From Acidobacteriota bacterium (GTDB lineage Bacteria > Acidobacteriota > Terriglobia > 20CM-2-55-15): DNA of 64,000 nt. The stretch is from assembly GCA_022821145.1 (NCBI GenBank), contig JAJEEE010000081.1, forward strand, positions 62,001 to 126,000, given 5' to 3'. Positions 1,699 through 9,168 of this stretch are shown in pieces. A program made the translations under genes and the position numbers. Below the pieces are notes generated by a model. The model saw nothing but the letters and a program-made list of their open reading frames with translations, did not search any database and was not told where the DNA came from. The number at the start of each line of letters is the position of its first letter. Positions within the stretch are counted from its first letter, which is position 1.

Positions 1699-1775
1699 CA
1701 GCGTGGCCGAGAAGACGTTCGTCATTCATTGGCATCTCGTTCATATGGTTCCCTTTTTTGTCCCCCGGTTGAGTC

Positions 1776-1800
1776 TGTCCCATGTTCTTGTAATGGGACA
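1776..1800. repeat. Perfect 8-bp inverted repeat at the left edge of the island
   Basis: TGTCCCAT at 1776-1783 is repeated in inverted form as ATGGGACA at 1793-1800, with a 9-base loop. There is no run of T after either arm, so it is not a standard intrinsic terminator. It lies between the lipoprotein gene and the first island gene, where base composition changes, and could be an operator, an RNA hairpin or a trace of integration. Confidence 0.45.
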
Positions 1801-1843
1801 CGCGGAGCACACGCGGACATAACGATAGGAGCGGAAAGAAACA

Positions 1844-1873
1844 ATGAACCAACGTCGGAAGAACCCCAGGTGA
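1844..1873 (+). CDS. Possible 9-codon leader peptide, coupled to the next gene
   Basis: An ATG at 1844 follows a good purine-rich ribosome site (AGGAGCGGAAAG, about 1828-1838). It opens a 9-residue frame, MNQRRKNPR, ending in TGA at 1871-1873. That stop overlaps the GTG at 1870-1872, which is the best start for the large island protein (GTGA overlap). The large gene's own GTG has only a weak site, so the leader could deliver ribosomes to it by termination-reinitiation. Such a short frame may also be chance. Confidence 0.35.
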   Translation: MNQRRKNPR

Positions 1874-3405
1874 GTGAAGCACAGGGATACTCTGCACTGG
1901 GCGGATATACCTGGCTTGACATCGACCGACCTGCGGACTATGAAGAGCTAGTCAACATACTGGGTGGCGAATATGAACCCACAAAGATAGCGGTCGAATT
2001 ACAGAACAATATTTCCAGTGAGGTTAGCGCTATTCTCGTCGAGCACGACTACATCGACAAGGATTACAGGAGTACGTTTTACAACTTCTATGCCAAGATG
2101 GGGCGGCCGTATCGTCAGGACTGTGTCAGGTTACACTTCTTCGACAAGGATGTGAGCTTTACCGAATCGCCTTTGGATCTAAAGGGCCCCGATTTATGGC
2201 TTGAACAGCATTACTTTGGATACATCGTCCTGAGACCGACGATCGCAGCTACGCTGGGTCGTTCCCTTCTGTCGCCGCGAATCAGGATTGGCGCACGAGG
2301 CAATGCGATCCAATCCCGCCACAAGGTCCACCTACTCGGATACACGCTGTCGGTTTGGGGATTCCCATCGATGGCGCAGCATGCGGACATCGCAGTGTGT
2401 GCGCATGTGTCGTGCTGGGCGATTCTCCGGCACTACAGCGAACAATATGTGCAGCATCGTGAGCTGCTCGTGCATGACATCACGCGGCTTGCGACGCCGC
2501 TCGATCCGGGCGGACTGACGCCGTCCCTAGGCCTGAACCTGTATGAGGCGGAACGCATCTTCCAGGCGGCGGGCTGCTACCCACTGATGATCGTTAGGGA
2601 ATGGGACGAGGACTCCGAAGAATGGGTTGATGATGACAACTTTTTTGCGCAGATGTTGAGTTACCTTGATTCGGGTTTTCCGTTGTTCGTGTCGTTGCGG
2701 AGCGAGGCAATGAACAATGAAGGACATGCGATAGTCCTAGCGGGCTATTCGTGGCGCCACGGATCGCCCGGATCAAGAGAGGGTTGCTCTCATGTGTGGT
2801 CGTTGGTGGATGGTCTTCTCGCTGTCGACGACAATATGCTGCCCTACAGTTCTGTGAGTATCGGAAATCACACGAATTCGACGGTAGATATAGAGAACTA
2901 CTCGGCGAGAGACTTCGATGCGTTTATCGTTCCGTTACCCGACAAGATTTTCTATCCCGCGCAAGCAGTAGAGTCGTTTTCCCTCCGTACCATGTATCCA
3001 ATTTACAAGGAGGTGCTAGACTTGCCGGAAGAAGACAAATTGCTGCGACGATACTTCGTGACAACTGTGTCAGCGCTCAGGCGTTTCGCGCGAAATAACT
3101 TATCGCAATTCGGTACTGAGTTGGCAAATCTGTATATGCACTTGAAGACCACACAGTTCGTCTGGTTGGTCGAGTATGCTTCCGAGGAACAGTGGAGCGA
3201 TGGACACATTGCGGCACGAGTCGTGCTGGATGCCAGTGCGAGCCGCAAAGACGTACAACCCATGTGGCTGTGCCACAATCACGAGTTCGCATTCATCTTC
3301 GATCGCTCTTCGGAAGTACCGACAGGGCGCGAAATTGGGCTCGGACGGCCTGCAAATACGCCGTTGAGCCGTATGGAGACGAATCTGCGACCGGTGAGAC
3401 CGTGA
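1870..3405 (+). CDS. Papain-fold-like cysteine peptidase candidate of the Ubl island
   Basis: This 511-residue protein (GTG start at 1870) has no name I can give. The frame stays open upstream to 1729, but that part lies against the preceding gene and has no ribosome site. Residues 165-325 carry a papain or C39-like order: Gln170, then VCAHVSCWAI with Cys177 and Cys182, GHAIVLAGY with His286, and AVDDN with Asp320/321 and Asn322. The SCWA string resembles the papain nucleophile site. No signal peptide or membrane segment is seen. Residues 1-160 and 330-511 match nothing known to me. Base composition is clearly lower in GC than the flanking core genes. Next to a Ubl operon it could be a deconjugating peptidase or an effector; this is inferred from motif order and context only. 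Confidence 0.6.
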   Translation: MSEAQGYSALGGYTWLDIDRPADYEELVNILGGEYEPTKIAVELQNNISSEVSAILVEHDYIDKDYRSTFYNFYAKMGRPYRQDCVRLHFFDKDVSFTESPLDLKGPDLWLEQHYFGYIVLRPTIAATLGRSLLSPRIRIGARGNAIQSRHKVHLLGYTLSVWGFPSMAQHADIAVCAHVSCWAILRHYSEQYVQHRELLVHDITRLATPLDPGGLTPSLGLNLYEAERIFQAAGCYPLMIVREWDEDSEEWVDDDNFFAQMLSYLDSGFPLFVSLRSEAMNNEGHAIVLAGYSWRHGSPGSREGCSHVWSLVDGLLAVDDNMLPYSSVSIGNHTNSTVDIENYSARDFDAFIVPLPDKIFYPAQAVESFSLRTMYPIYKEVLDLPEEDKLLRRYFVTTVSALRRFARNNLSQFGTELANLYMHLKTTQFVWLVEYASEEQWSDGHIAARVVLDASASRKDVQPMWLCHNHEFAFIFDRSSEVPTGREIGLGRPANTPLSRMETNLRPVRP

Positions 3406-3457
3406 CCGGACGACCGATGATCGGCGTCTTGGTGTGTGCTTGACCAAGGAGCTACGC

Positions 3458-3679
3458 ATGAACAGGAGGCTGATTGACTATCTCGACAAAAAGGGCGCGA
3501 AAGCGCTCAACGAAGATCTTCTGAGAGCGTACGCAACAGCGATGAAGGAGCGGACGATCCCCGACACTGAGAGGCAGGTCAGGAAGAACGACGAGCGTGC
3601 CGCAGTGTTGCGGCTTTCGCCAAGCTCATCCTCAAGGCGTCAACGAGCCGTTAGGCGAGAGAAAAGGAGACAGGGGTGA
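3458..3679 (+). CDS. Small basic protein of unknown function
   Basis: The 73-residue frame starts at the ATG at 3458, with AAGGAG at 3446-3451 in front, so translation is likely. Residues 1-35 look like an amphipathic helix pair (RRLIDYLDKKGAKALNEDLL). The C-terminal 25 residues are a Ser run followed by a strongly basic tail (SSSSRRQRAVRREKRRQG), which suggests nucleic-acid binding or disorder. It follows the papain-like gene by 52 bases on the same strand, probably co-transcribed. No cysteines, no transmembrane segment, no family recognised. It could be an accessory subunit, an antitoxin-like partner or a decayed gene end. Confidence 0.55.
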   Translation: MNRRLIDYLDKKGAKALNEDLLRAYATAMKERTIPDTERQVRKNDERAAVLRLSPSSSSRRQRAVRREKRRQG

Positions 3680-3724: not shown

Positions 3725-4093
3725 CTAGTGGGGGTCACCCTGACGTTTGAAACGATCATAGGCTGCCCTGATGATGGTCTCCAACGCATCGGCACCTCCA
3801 CGATCGAGGTTGGGATCCTCGCGGAGCAGCTTGGACACCATCGCGATCGGCTCTCTGGCTCGCTTCGGCGCAGATATGAAGTCGACGGGATTGAGCCCTG
3901 ACCAAGCCGAAAGGGCTGTGAGGCTAGCGGCGTCGGGCTGGCGACCGTTGGACATCCGGGACAGCGTTGTTTGTGAGACGCCCGTCTGCTCGCTAACCGC
4001 TTTCCAAGTCGTGTCCCGCACCTTCACTGTTGCACTGAGAGCAGCATAGAACGACGGGAAATCGAACCTTGTGCGTCGATTCACGGCGGTCAC
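3725..4093 (-). CDS. XRE-family helix-turn-helix regulator of the Ubl operon
   Basis: The 122-residue protein has an XRE/Cro-type DNA-binding domain at about residues 28-66: TWKAVSEQTGVSQTTLSRMSNGRQPDAASLTALSAWSGL has the two-helix pattern and the conserved NG turn. The remainder is a short helical tail, with no peptidase or sensor domain. The apparent start is GTG at 4093; the GTG a few codons in is an alternative. It is divergent from the ubiquitin-like operon and convergent with the small basic gene. Two similar dyads surround the operon's promoter, so a repressor role on that promoter is the simplest reading (inference). Confidence 0.8.
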   Translation of the reverse strand: MTAVNRRTRFDFPSFYAALSATVKVRDTTWKAVSEQTGVSQTTLSRMSNGRQPDAASLTALSAWSGLNPVDFISAPKRAREPIAMVSKLLREDPNLDRGGADALETIIRAAYDRFKRQGDPH

Positions 4094-4592: not shown

Positions 4593-4913
4593 ATGACGAT
4601 GAACAACTCGGGAATCGAGCCGGGCCAAAAGAGCCCGCGAGCCGAAGACGTGAAGGCCGCAGAAGATCGTGGCGCAGAGTTCAAGAAAGTCACGATCGAG
4701 ATCAACGGCCACAAGGTCGAGATGCTGGAAGGACCGGCGTCAGGCCTGGAGATCAAGGAAGAAGCAATCAAGCAGGGTGTCGGCATCACGGCGAAGTTCG
4801 TTCTGCAGCAGGAGATGCCGAACGGCACCGGAAAGGTGATCGGCGACGATGACAAGGTCCTCATTCGCGAGCACCTGAGCTTCACGGCGATCGAGCCCGA
4901 CGACAACAGCTAA
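4593..4913 (+). CDS. Ubiquitin-like (beta-grasp) protein, single domain
   Basis: The 106-residue protein has a disordered, charged N-terminus (1-29) and one beta-grasp-like domain (about 31-101): VTIEINGHKVEML as the first hairpin, GLEIKEEAIKQG as the helix, and KVLIREHLSFTAIE as the last strands. This resembles one unit of the bacterial multi-ubiquitin family, and the following E2-like and JAB-E1 genes support the call. It has no cysteine. It ends EPDDNS with no Gly-Gly, so it is not a ready substrate for canonical activation at a diglycine tail. AAGGAG at 4579-4584 selects the ATG at 4593. Its TAA overlaps the next ATG (TAATG). Assignment is by pattern and context; a structure prediction would test it. 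Confidence 0.72.
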   Translation: MTMNNSGIEPGQKSPRAEDVKAAEDRGAEFKKVTIEINGHKVEMLEGPASGLEIKEEAIKQGVGITAKFVLQQEMPNGTGKVIGDDDKVLIREHLSFTAIEPDDNS

Positions 4914-5314
4914 TGAAGGGTACCGGCACGAGGACAGCGGTCAGTGAGGCCATCGAGGAGTTGAAGCGGGCCTTTCCCGGATCGGAGGTCACGGTCATCG
5001 AGGATGGACAGGGAGGGGCTCACGTGGTGGTCGAGACCGTGCACGTTGGTGATCGCTACGAGCCGGCGTATACGTGGCTGGCGGGCCACATTACCGCTCA
5101 GTATCCCTACGCGGACATCTATCCGGTGTTCATGGACGCGGCCGTGCAGCGTCGGGATGGAAAGGCGTTCGAGGCGCCAATCACGAAGGGGCATGACTTT
5201 CGCGGGCGTCCGGCAATCCAGATCTCCCGACGGAACAACCGGATACGGAATTCAGGGCAGTCCGCCGTCGCAAAGTTCCTGAAGATCATCGACTTCCTGG
5301 AAAAGGTCGAATGA
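4913..5314 (+). CDS. E2/UBC-like protein without any cysteine
   Basis: The 133-residue protein has the order expected for a minimal E2 fold: an N-terminal helix (SEAIEELKRAF, 11-21), four strands (about 25-75) ending in a YP-containing turn (QYPYADIYPVFM, 63-74), a loop with GRPAIQISRR (98-107), and a C-terminal helix (118-131). Canonical E2 enzymes carry the catalytic Cys after the YP-strand segment; here the whole protein has none, and Ser105 or Arg-rich residues occupy that region. There is no ribosome site of its own; TAATG coupling to the Ubl gene is likely, and its stop overlaps the next start (ATGA). It may be a non-catalytic adaptor, use an oxygen nucleophile, or be a different small protein. 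The family call rests largely on operon context. Confidence 0.58.
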   Translation: MKGTGTRTAVSEAIEELKRAFPGSEVTVIEDGQGGAHVVVETVHVGDRYEPAYTWLAGHITAQYPYADIYPVFMDAAVQRRDGKAFEAPITKGHDFRGRPAIQISRRNNRIRNSGQSAVAKFLKIIDFLEKVE

Positions 5315-6681
5315 CGAGCCAACAGACGTGCGAGATTATCATCACGCACGAGGATCACAACCGGGTGATGACGCATCTATTTCCGGGTGATCATGACGAA
5401 TACGGTGCGGTTCTCCGTGCGGGGATCGTGTCCTGCGACACCAGACTTCGTCTCTTGGTCAATGCCGTGGAGCGGGCGCGGGTTGGCACGGACTACATCC
5501 CGGGAAAATACGGCTACCGCGCGTTGGATCCCTCGTTCATCCACCGGCAAATCGTGCGATGCCGCAACGAACGAATGGCCTATCTGGCTGTGCACAACCA
5601 TAGTTCCGACACTTCCGTTCGCTTTAGCAGGGTTGACCTTGACTCGCACAAGAGGGGATATCCGGCGTTGCTCGACATCGGCAAAGGCATACCGGTCGGC
5701 GCACTGGTCTTCGGGCGTCGCGCGGTGGCGGCGGACGTCTGGATGCCGGATGGCACGCGACGGGTGCTCGGGTCGTACCGGGTGGTCGGTCAGACGATCA
5801 GGAGGCTGTATGCCAATCCGCAGCGAGCTGCCATGGCGGGCACCCGTTTCGACAGGCAGGTACGCATGCTCGGTCATGCGGGGCAGGCCGTGCTGGGCGC
5901 GAGTAAGGTGGCGGTCGTGGGGCTGGGTGGAGTCGGATCCCTGGTCGCTGAATATCTCGCACGTCTCGGCGTCGGTCACCTCGTGCTAGTTGATCCGGAT
6001 GAGATTGAGGACACCAACCTGTCCCGCGTCGTCGGCGCTACGCTGCTGGATGTCGAGACCAAACAGTTCAAGACGCAAATCGCCGTCCGGCATCTGGGAG
6101 AGGCCAGACCAGATATTCGGCTGGAAGCAATTCGGGGCGATGTTGCGAGTGAGTCGGTCGCTATGAAACTGAGGGACTGCGATTTCATCTTCCTAGCCGC
6201 GGACTCGATGAGGAGCCGGCTGGTGGTGAACGCGCTGACTCACCAATACCTGATTCCTACCGTGCAGATGGGTGCGAAGATTAGACCGGGAGTGAGCGGC
6301 TCGATCGAGGATGCTATGTGCGCCGTACGGAAGTTGAGGCCGGGAACGGGATGCCTCTGGTGCAACGGATTAATCGACGGAACGCAACTGGCAATCGAGG
6401 CGAAGACAGATGAGGAACGAAAGGCCCAGGACTACGGGGTTCGGGAACCGAACCCCAGTGTGATCACGCTGAATGCCGTGGCTGCAGGTCACGCGGCGAA
6501 CGACTTTCTGTTCGACTTTCTGGACCTGCGGCCCACGAGCGGCGACGCGGTGTATCAGCACCATCACTTTTTGCGGAGCACCTCACAGAACGTGGTTCCA
6601 CGCAAGGATCCGAACTGCCGGGAGTGCGGGAAGAGGCTGGGAATGGGCGACGCGATGGGTTTGCCGACAGTAATGGGATGA
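5311..6681 (+). CDS. JAB metalloprotease-E1 (ThiF-like) fusion of the Ubl system
   Basis: The 456-residue fusion has two enzymes. Residues 1-165 are a JAB/JAMM peptidase: Glu30 and the zinc site His95, His97, Ser106, Asp109 (HNH, 8 residues, SRVD; most JAMM motifs have 7). Residues 175-456 are an E1/ThiF adenylating domain: GLGGVGS at 204-210, VDPDEIEDTNLSR (227-239), Asp298, and zinc pairs CLWC (348-351) and CREC (436-439). No Cys lies between 351 and 436, where ThiF and E1 enzymes have the thioester-forming residue; other cysteines are 7, 42, 84, 290 and 337. JAB domains trim or remove Ubls, and E1 domains adenylate their C-terminus, so one chain could mature, activate and recycle the Ubl. 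It is the last gene of the operon. Confidence 0.9.
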   Translation: MTSQQTCEIIITHEDHNRVMTHLFPGDHDEYGAVLRAGIVSCDTRLRLLVNAVERARVGTDYIPGKYGYRALDPSFIHRQIVRCRNERMAYLAVHNHSSDTSVRFSRVDLDSHKRGYPALLDIGKGIPVGALVFGRRAVAADVWMPDGTRRVLGSYRVVGQTIRRLYANPQRAAMAGTRFDRQVRMLGHAGQAVLGASKVAVVGLGGVGSLVAEYLARLGVGHLVLVDPDEIEDTNLSRVVGATLLDVETKQFKTQIAVRHLGEARPDIRLEAIRGDVASESVAMKLRDCDFIFLAADSMRSRLVVNALTHQYLIPTVQMGAKIRPGVSGSIEDAMCAVRKLRPGTGCLWCNGLIDGTQLAIEAKTDEERKAQDYGVREPNPSVITLNAVAAGHAANDFLFDFLDLRPTSGDAVYQHHHFLRSTSQNVVPRKDPNCRECGKRLGMGDAMGLPTVMG

Positions 6682-6893
6682 ATGATTCTCCGGGGGGATG
6701 GCGGCCCTTCTTACTAGGTCCCCGAGATGTGATGTTTCATCCGAAAGGCGACTTGGCGCCGGTTAGGGAACGCGGAGCGACGCGCGAAAACGCGGGAAGG
6801 AACTCGAATGTGAGCGACGGATAGACCAACGTCAGCTTGGTTCGCGATCTTTTCGTGGTACGAGTCCCTGCCGGAGGTAGTGGCAAAAATTTT

Positions 6894-6920
6894 GACGGCG
6901 GCATGCAGCATGCCGCCGTC
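6894..6920 (-). terminator. Intrinsic terminator of katG
   Basis: A perfect 12-bp stem (GACGGCGGCATG, 6894-6905, pairing with 6909-6920) has a 3-base loop. Read on the minus strand it is followed by AAAATTTTT, the U-tract of a rho-independent terminator, 23 bases past the katG stop. It may also slow readthrough from the Ubl operon on the plus strand, where the T-tract is poor. Confidence 0.85.
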
Positions 6921-6942
6921 TTCTGAGTCCAGCTTCGGACGA

Positions 6943-9168
6943 CTACCGCTCGAGATCGAAACGGTCCAGGGTCATCACCTTGACCCACGCCGCGACGAAG
7001 TCGTCAAGGAACGCCTCCTGCCCGTCGGCGGCGGCATAGAACTCCGACACCGCGCGCAACTCGGAGTTGGAACCGAAGATCAGGTCGACCGGAGTCGCCG
7101 TCCACTTCAGCTCGCCCGTGGCCCGGTCGCGCCCTTCGTAGACGCCCTCGGCCGCCGACACCGTCCATTCGGTCGACATGTCGACGAGGTTGACGAAGAA
7201 GTCGTTCGTCAACGCGCCCGGACGGTCCGTGAACACGCCGTGCCCGGAGCCCCCGGCGTTGCCGTCGAGCGCCCGCATCCCGCCGACCAGCACCGTCATT
7301 TCCGGCACCGTCAGGTTCAGCATCGCCGCCTTTTCCACCAGCATCTCCACCGGAGGCCGGGCGTTGCCGCCAGCGAAGTAGTTGCGGAACCCGTCCGCGG
7401 TCGGTTCCAGCACGGCCATGGAGTCCACGTCGGTCCGATCGGCCGAGGCGTCCATGCGGCCCGGCGCGAACGGGACGTCCACGTCGAAGCCCGCGCTGCC
7501 GGCCGCCTGCTCGACGGCGGCCGCGCCGCCGAGCACGATCACGTCGGCGAGCGAGACACGCTTGCCGCTGGTTTGGGCGCCGTTGAAATCGTTCCGCGCC
7601 CCCTCCAGCGTTCCCAGCACGCGGTTCAACTCGGCCGGGTCGTTGACCGCCCAGCCGTTCTGGGGCGCGAGACGGATGCGCGCGCCGTTGGCGCCGCCGC
7701 GCATGTCGGTCCCGCGGTAGGTGGATGCCGAAGCCCAAGCGGTCCGAATCAGCTCGGGGACCGTCAAGCCGGAATCCAGGATGGCGGCTTTCAGTCCCGC
7801 CGCGTCCGCCGCGTCGATCAGAGTATGGTTCACGGCCGGAATCGGGTCTTGCCACACGAATTCCTCGTCCGGCGCGTGGTCGCCGAGGTAACGCGACGTC
7901 GGACCCAGGTCGCGGTGGGTCAGCTTGAACCAGGCCCGCGCGAACGCGTCTTCGAACTCGTCAGGGTTCTCCAACCACCGCGAAGTGATCTCGCGATAGG
8001 CCGGGTCCTCCTTGAGCGCCAGGTCGGTCGTCAACATCATGGGCGCGTGCCGGACGGATGGATCGTGGGCATCCGGCACCAGGTCCGATGCCGCGCCGTC
8101 GGCGGGTTCCCACTGGATCGCGCCCGCCGGGCTTCGAGTCTGCACCCAGTCGTAGGCGTACAGGTTCTCGAGGAAGTTGTGGGTCCACGCCGCGGGGTTG
8201 AACGTCCACGCGCCCTCCAGGCCGCTGGTGATCGTGTCGGCGCCATGGCCGTCTCCGAGGCTGTTCCGCCATCCGAAACCCTGGGCCTCGATGACGTCGC
8301 CCTCGGGCTCGACGCCGACGTACTGCGACGGATCCGCGGCGCCGTGGGCCTTGCCGAACGTATGCCCCCCGGCAATCAGCGCAACGGTCTCTTCATCGTT
8401 CATGGCCATGCGGCCGAAGGCTTCCCGTATGGCCTGGGCGGCCGCCAGCGGGTCGGGGTTGCCGCCCGGGCCCTGGGGATTCACGTAGATCAGGCCCATC
8501 TGCGTCGCGCCGAACGGATGCTCCAGCTCTCCGTCGGCGTTGCGCCGGTCGGCGGCCAGCCACTCGCCCTCGGGTCCCCAGTTCACGTCGTCGGGCTGCC
8601 AGGCGTCGACCCGGCCGCCCGCGAAACCGAGGGTCTCGAACCCCATCGAATCCATGGCCACCGTGCCCGCCAGGATCATCATGTCGGCCCAGGAAATGTT
8701 GCGGCCGTATTTCTCCTTGATCGGCCAGAGCAGCCGGTGCGCCTTGTCCAGGTTGGCGTTGTCCGGCCAACTGTTGAGCGGCGCCAGGCGCTGCAGCCCC
8801 CCATCGGCGCCGCCCCGCCCGTCGATGGTCCGATAGGTACCCGCGCTGTGCCACGCCATTCGAATGAAGAACGGCCCGTAGTGACCGTAGTCGGCCGGCC
8901 ACCAGTCCTGCGAGGTCGTCATCAGCGCTTCGACATCCGCCTTCACCGCATCCAGGTCGAGGCTTTCGAACCCCGCCGCGTAGTCGAAATCCGCGTCCAG
9001 GGGGCTCGATCCCGTGGAGCCCTGACGCAGCGGGTCGAGGCTCAGACGGTTCGGCCACCAATAGTCGTTGTCCGGCGGACGATCCTGGGCCGCCGCCCAG
9101 TGGACCGGCAGACCCGGCGCCATCGCGATCGCCAGCAGGGCGATGACAGATATCGTTCGTTCACGCAT
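6943..9168 (-). CDS. katG: Catalase-peroxidase with an export signal
   Basis: The 741-residue haem enzyme destroys hydrogen peroxide. The distal site [11 protein letters not shown] gives Arg103, Trp106 and His107. The proximal site [11 protein letters not shown], the Tyr of [10 protein letters not shown] and the Met of [10 protein letters not shown] complete the Trp-Tyr-Met adduct typical of KatG. Both the catalytic N-terminal and the haem-free C-terminal peroxidase halves are present. Residues 1-28 form a signal peptide (hydrophobic core [16 protein letters not shown] before QDR), so this copy should be periplasmic like KatP, whereas most KatG are cytoplasmic. AAAGGAGG (9178-9185) precedes the ATG. 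It is divergent from oxyR and likely induced by it. Confidence 0.97.

Follow-up and report, generated by a model that had tools for sequence, protein, structure and literature searches.

The locus and its gene content

Within the window (i.e. the whole stretch of 64,000 nucleotides that was analysed), three forward-strand genes follow one another in the order Ubl (ubiquitin-like protein), E2 and JAB-E1 fusion, with overlaps at both junctions (TAATG and ATGA), and lie next to genes for a divergent regulator, a small conserved protein and a predicted peptidase. The features are given below with their supporting evidence in brackets ('the branch' designates the cluster of related operons to which that of the window belongs).

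1729..3405, + strand: C39/papain-like predicted cysteine peptidase, co-conserved (Peptidase_C39_2 at 18.9 bits, below the cut-off)
3434..3679, + strand: small conserved ORF of 81 aa between the C39-like and HTH genes (homologues in the same place in loci L002-L006)
3725..4093, - strand: divergent HTH protein (Cro/C1-type), likely the operon repressor (HTH_3, 2e-4)
4593..4913, + strand: Ubl of 106 aa, predicted beta-grasp domain at residues 31-106, ending in -Asp-Asp-Asn-Ser (Multi_ubiq near miss; AlphaFold)
4899..4910, + strand: codons for DDNS, the last four residues of the Ubl (tail alignment)
4913..5314, + strand: Cys-less E2 of 133 aa, BubB-like, Prok-E2_E (PF14462 at 25.4 bits; UBC fold, Z 11.3 to BubB 9eae_C)
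5201..5203, + strand: codon of E2 Arg97, within the branch a Cys only in L002-L004 (E2 alignment)
5225..5227, + strand: codon TCC of E2 Ser105, invariant Ser and candidate acyl acceptor (sole invariant column among 37 E2s)
5311..6681, + strand: JAB-E1 fusion of 456 aa, BubCD-like, with N-terminal JAMM and C-terminal ThiF/E1 parts (ThiF PF00899, 4.8e-36; phmmer)
6457..6459, + strand: codon of E1 Ser383, in P-S-V-I-T-L-N, in place of the E1 catalytic Cys (Ser in 18/18 of the branch)

The E2 reading frame (4913-5314, forward strand) opens with ATG and encodes 133 residues without a single Cys, which bears out what the sequence-only reading had observed. Intact homologues are present in eight other genomes (33-80% identity) and relatives also on nine plasmids, in all nine records of which the gene is labelled 'hypothetical protein'; a scan of viral contigs for such relatives found none. 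A spurious ORF was ruled out by this conservation together with the predicted fold (see below). The protein scores barely above the curated cut-off of Prok-E2_E (PF14462: 25.4 versus 25 bits), the E2 of a Nostoc member of the branch has no Pfam match whatsoever, and the window E2 was matched neither in NCBIfam and PADLOC nor, when used alone in a phmmer search, by any PDB entry at E values up to 1.

This trio of genes, with its order unchanged, is shared by Alpha- and Gammaproteobacteria, by Acidimicrobiia and other Actinomycetota, by Cyanobacteria, by Deinococcus and by one Latescibacterota MAG, with the branch of the window spanning five phyla and several of its operons residing on conjugative or mobilizable plasmids. 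In an IQ-TREE phylogeny of 36 E1s (18 loci of the branch plus other PF14462 operons; Citrobacter absent), the branch is set apart from the other operons sampled by a long stem (1.18 changes per column), as a clade of its own with 100/100 support. Furthermore, in searches of plasmid E1s nine sequences of this branch stood at 41-47% identity and most others below 35%, with a gap between. Judged by its sequences, the window operon belongs to a distinct branch of the Bub (bacterial ubiquitination-like) systems, new here.

Upstream of the operon, the HTH protein retains 73-89% identity in L002-L006 and 41% in L038, the same loci in which the gene of the C39-like peptidase is found. The latter ORF probably starts about 47 codons downstream of position 1729, and its C224, H333 and D367/D368 are invariant in 7 homologues; a profile search of the PDB with the 558-aa protein gave no match, and no family was found for the 81-aa ORF (3434-3679). 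In the 18 loci with enough flanking sequence, the HTH gene is accompanied either by an ImmA/IrrE metallopeptidase (10 loci) or by a C39/papain-like peptidase (8 loci: the window, L002-L006, L038 and L031, one of them weak) and never by both, the loci being related and perhaps amounting to three independent cases. Since the two peptidase types are mutually exclusive beside the HTH gene, and since an HTH-peptidase pair (CapH and CapP) is reported to control Bub operons after DNA damage (PMC13373217), the C39-like protein may, by analogy, stand in for CapP as the switch by which DNA damage leads to cleavage of the repressor.

The E2-like protein and its invariant serine

The AlphaFold2 model of the E2 (built from nine sequences; pLDDT 83.9, pTM 0.80) displays the topology helix, four strands, hairpin, helix, and among solved structures Citrobacter BubB comes closest to it (9eae_C; first in the Foldseek ranking, E 5e-3; VIA Z 11.3 at 3.0 A for 120 residues). 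E2 and UEV proteins (the UEV domains of Tsg101 included) rank next, with Z of about 7-8; values below 8 would by themselves be weak support for a UBC fold. As BubB is also reached by sequence with the profile of the E2 family (E 2e-19), we consider the UBC fold of the window E2 secure, and the outcome that the sequence-only reading had set against itself, a fold unrelated to UBC, is thus contradicted by both model and profile. The window protein shares this fold with eukaryotic E2 (UBC) and UEV/RWD domains. It differs from canonical eukaryotic E2s in that it lacks the catalytic Cys and the HPN motif (looked for in its sequence and absent) and retains, close to the catalytic position, a Ser that does not vary.

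The absence of Cys, taken alone, is weak evidence and unremarkable by chance, since, with Cys as frequent as in the proteins encoded nearby (1.26%), a chain of 133 residues would contain none with P of about 0.19. What the alignment adds is that a conserved Cys column, sought across 37 aligned E2s (20 of the branch and 17 other PF14462 proteins), is lacking, the Cys97 of L002-L004 being sporadic; the lack of Cys is therefore, as far as the aligned sequences indicate, a trait of the whole E2 family. Local loss of a catalytic Cys is ruled out on the same grounds, and no set of homologues contains the conserved active-position Cys that the earlier reading had named as evidence against its proposal.

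The 37 aligned E2s, some of which have an overall identity to the window protein as low as about 12-20%, all agree at a single column, residue 105 (a Ser within the segment GRPAIQISRRNN), and it is again the sole invariant column in a second alignment of 17 representatives. The solved BubB carries this Ser in alignment with Ser105, and nine further PF14462 proteins retain it (within W-S-R-H, F-S-R-H, F-S-W-H, F-S-Y-H or W-S-K-N); the window E2 conforms to the family-wide motif [WFIVL]-S-[RW]-[HRK]. The sequence-only reading, which had proposed Ser105, Arg106 or Arg107 as residues to be checked for invariance, is hence upheld for the Ser (37/37) and in part for its neighbours: Arg106 is present throughout the branch (20/20) and at a frequency of 0.86 among all aligned E2s, and position 107 is Arg in only 18 of the 20 branch members. 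Also common to all 20 are Trp55, Pro65, Asp68, Tyr70, Pro71, Arg80, Asp82 and Lys121. Two residues past the Ser, the other PF14462 clades carry a His (S-x-H), a possible base, which in the branch is Arg or Lys. An exchange of this Ser for Cys was sought in 46 sequences and not seen.

The place of Ser105 in the fold was estimated from the end points of the VIA alignments, by counting residues backwards through the C-terminal helix that the proteins have in common, on the assumption that no gap follows residue 105. In the VIA ranges, residue 133 of the model pairs with residue 116 of UBE2N and of UBE2L3, 120 of UBE2W and 121 of UBE2K, so that Ser105 would correspond to residues 88, 88, 92 and 93, respectively. 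The catalytic cysteines of these enzymes are Cys87 (UBE2N), Cys86 (UBE2L3), Cys91 (UBE2W) and Cys92 (UBE2K). Because the counted-back positions differ from these by one or two, the alignment end points suggest that Ser105 lies within 1-2 residues of the UBC catalytic Cys position; the loop directly past it is modelled with low confidence (pLDDT below 50 at residues 108-113).

The Ubl tail and the JAB-E1 fusion

The Ubl falls short of the Multi_ubiq profile (PF14452: 22.0 bits, cut-off 24.5). Its beta-grasp fold is supported by the AlphaFold model (pLDDT 73.9 overall, 84-89 in most of the domain), whose top five matches among solved structures are multi-ubiquitin proteins of bacteria (Z 9.3-10.4; 9cd2, 9d59 and 9d5b, at Z 9.8-10.4, being among the best) and in which the terminal Ser106 pairs, in several of the alignments, with residues 75-76 of ubiquitin and NEDD8. 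The tail reads DDNS in 16 of the 18 aligned branch members and DDNA or HEDS in the other two. As codons of both the AGY and the TCN family encode the terminal Ser across the branch, and as loci without an overlap of Ubl stop and E2 start also keep the motif, the comparison of codons indicates that the constraint on DDNS acts on the protein. The Ubls of other PF14462 operons carry a Gly at this site (NPG, ATFG, TEG/DPTEG); in the branch Ubls, the beta-grasp domain does not close with the Gly seen in the other Bub clades sampled. Going by these tails, we would take the non-Gly ending to mark a variant of Bub rather than exclusion from it. In six loci outside the branch (L010, L011, L012, L017, L018 and L020, all with other PF14462 proteins), a single ORF encodes both Ubl and E2, an arrangement that looks as though it calls for cleavage by JAB.

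The JAB-E1 fusion is homologous to Citrobacter BubCD (9ea4) over residues 8-403 (phmmer E 1.2e-25). In its JAMM half, E30, H95, H97, S106 and D109 are retained by all 18 branch members, with H-N-H, or H-C-H in the case of two Nostoc loci, in place of H-S-H-P. In the E1 half, the four cysteines of a zinc-type Cys4 site (348, 351, 436 and 439) and the ThiF residues R182, N236, R239, K254 and D298 are likewise found in 18/18, and with the ThiF residues complete throughout, adenylation by the window E1 is expected from sequence and should work. At the E1 crossover site, the branch invariably has Ser383 (18/18), as does Citrobacter BubCD at the matching position; of the E1s associated with other PF14462 proteins, 15 of 18 carry Ala there. 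The sequence-only reading had noted neither this Ser at the E1 Cys site nor the -DDNS ending of the Ubl, both of them more unusual than the features that it names. E1 residue 319 is Gln in 18/18 of the -DDNS branch versus Asp in 18/18 of the other clades, a substitution that is possibly tied to the altered Ubl tail. In one locus on a Deinococcus plasmid (L035; CP058538.1, 4393-7078) the E1 gene is split, with its C-terminal part at 6686-7078 and annotated transposase genes between.

Candidate mechanisms and relation to known systems

By its operon structure (Ubl, E2 and JAB-E1 fusion) and its homology to BubCD and BubB, the window locus belongs with Bub. The Citrobacter system (BubB and BubCD; PDB 9eae, 9eav, 9ea4 and 9ea5) likewise has an E2 and a JAB-E1 fusion adjoining the Ubl; its BubCD has the E1 motif PSVITLN in common with the window protein, and its BubB shares with the window E2 the fold, the Pfam family and the aligned invariant Ser. 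The branch departs from Bub in three motifs: the Ubl tail (-DDNS versus a Gly-containing one), the surroundings of the E2 Ser (S-R-R-x-N versus S-R-H...W) and the JAMM site (HNH versus HSHP). Oxyester intermediates have reportedly been described in the paper on the Bub mechanism. Iyer, Burroughs and Aravind (2006) defined an operon type, 6e, composed of a polyUbl, a Cys-less E2/RWD-like protein and a JAB-E1 fusion, the Cys-less E2s of which they judged inactive (PMC1779556). The window matches this type in its Ubl, its Cys-less E2/RWD-like domain and its JAB fused to E1, and differs from it in having one Ubl domain where type 6e Ubls mostly have two or three; the main-text passages that describe type 6e name neither an invariant Ser nor a -DDNS tail (PMC1779556). 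The Bil antiphage conjugation system (BilABCD) likewise groups a bacterial Ubl with an E2, a JAB and an E1 in a single operon. Its E1 and JAB are separate proteins and BilB has a catalytic Cys, Cys138, that lies within a CEHH motif (PMC11354881), whereas the window has JAB and E1 fused and an E2 without Cys, which sets it outside Bil. In sum, the Cys-less E2s and the general Bub pathway are already known, and what appears to be new here is the -DDNS branch, as recognized by its Ser-ended Ubl, the E1 Ser383 and the E2 S-R-R-x-N.

We regard the window gene as the E2 of a diverged Bub-type conjugation operon in which the Ubl would be carried on E2 Ser105 as an oxyester, a proposal to which we assign a probability slightly above even. 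The ThiF half of the JAB-E1 protein would adenylate Ser106 at the C-terminus of the Ubl (as suggested by the -DDNS tail and by a full set of ThiF catalytic residues); E2 Ser105 would next take up the Ubl, directly or by way of E1 Ser383, in an oxyester rather than a thioester bond and hand it on to a target nucleophile, probably Lys; and the JAB half, with its intact JAMM motif, would remove or process (trim) the Ubl. A relay through serine oxyesters is our best reading, albeit an unproven one, and its argument is conservation and position: the invariance of Ser105 and its place in the fold favour a chemical role. Several points speak against the oxyester. Conservation would equally be expected of a Ser whose role is to cap the loop or to bind the Ubl tail; the His of S-x-H is Arg or Lys in the branch; some Ser-to-Cys swaps might be expected for a nucleophile, and none occurs in the 46 sequences; the model is of low confidence directly past Ser105 (residues 108-113); and such E2s were judged inactive by the 2006 authors (PMC1779556). 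An extended form of the proposal, which we put forward tentatively and hold to be rather unlikely, is a relay made of serines only: the E1 would adenylate the Ser of the -DDNS Ubl, oxyesters would form on E1 Ser383 and/or E2 Ser105, and conjugation would proceed via the terminal Ser or, after trimming by JAB, via Asn105, the cascade thus containing neither a catalytic Cys nor a C-terminal Gly.

The main rival to the Ser105 oxyester is an E2 that serves as a scaffold (similar to UEV/RWD domains), which would bind E1 and Ubl and position the Ubl-AMP or the target Lys, with Ser105 only shaping the groove and either the E1 adenylate or E1 Ser383 handing the Ubl straight to the target. It agrees with the 2006 description of the Cys-less UBC domains of such operons as inactive (PMC1779556), with the Tsg101 UEV domains among the structural matches and with the loss of the S-x-H histidine in the branch; moreover, the invariant E1 Ser383 could be the sole covalent site. 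However, a pure scaffold would hardly hold one side chain invariant, near the catalytic position, at 12-20% identity, and the Ala found at the E1 site in 15 of 18 other Bub-like operons makes an E1 acceptor unlikely there. We consider the scaffold a serious contender of well below even probability.

Far less probable is thioester chemistry on a displaced Cys97 that the window E2 would have lost recently: this Cys does occur in three close relatives (L002-L004), within an F-C-G-R hairpin adjoining the active loop, but the alignment largely refutes such a role, as position 97 is Cys in only these 3 of the 20 branch E2s (R, A, N, Q, L, D or S in the remaining 17), 11 of the 20 (one a partial sequence) have no Cys anywhere, and outside the branch a Cys stands there in 2 of 17. 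That the operon is degenerate or non-functional, with a decaying E2 whose want of Cys would be meaningless (and, by the chance estimate of about 0.19, not rare), is the reading to which we give the least credence, given three intact genes, catalytic residues conserved across phyla and a Ubl tail retained despite AGY/TCN changes of its Ser codon.

Ubiquitin systems are usually described as relying on Cys carriers (thioesters) and on a modifier that ends in Gly, and by sequence the window branch departs from both rules. The operon, which is small (three genes, of 106, 133 and 456 aa) and hence easy to reconstitute, would be a natural comparison for the published work on Bub, and it could show whether E2-type transfer runs on an oxyester, which residues may end a modifier, and whether the Cys-less E2s that were called inactive in 2006 are enzymes.
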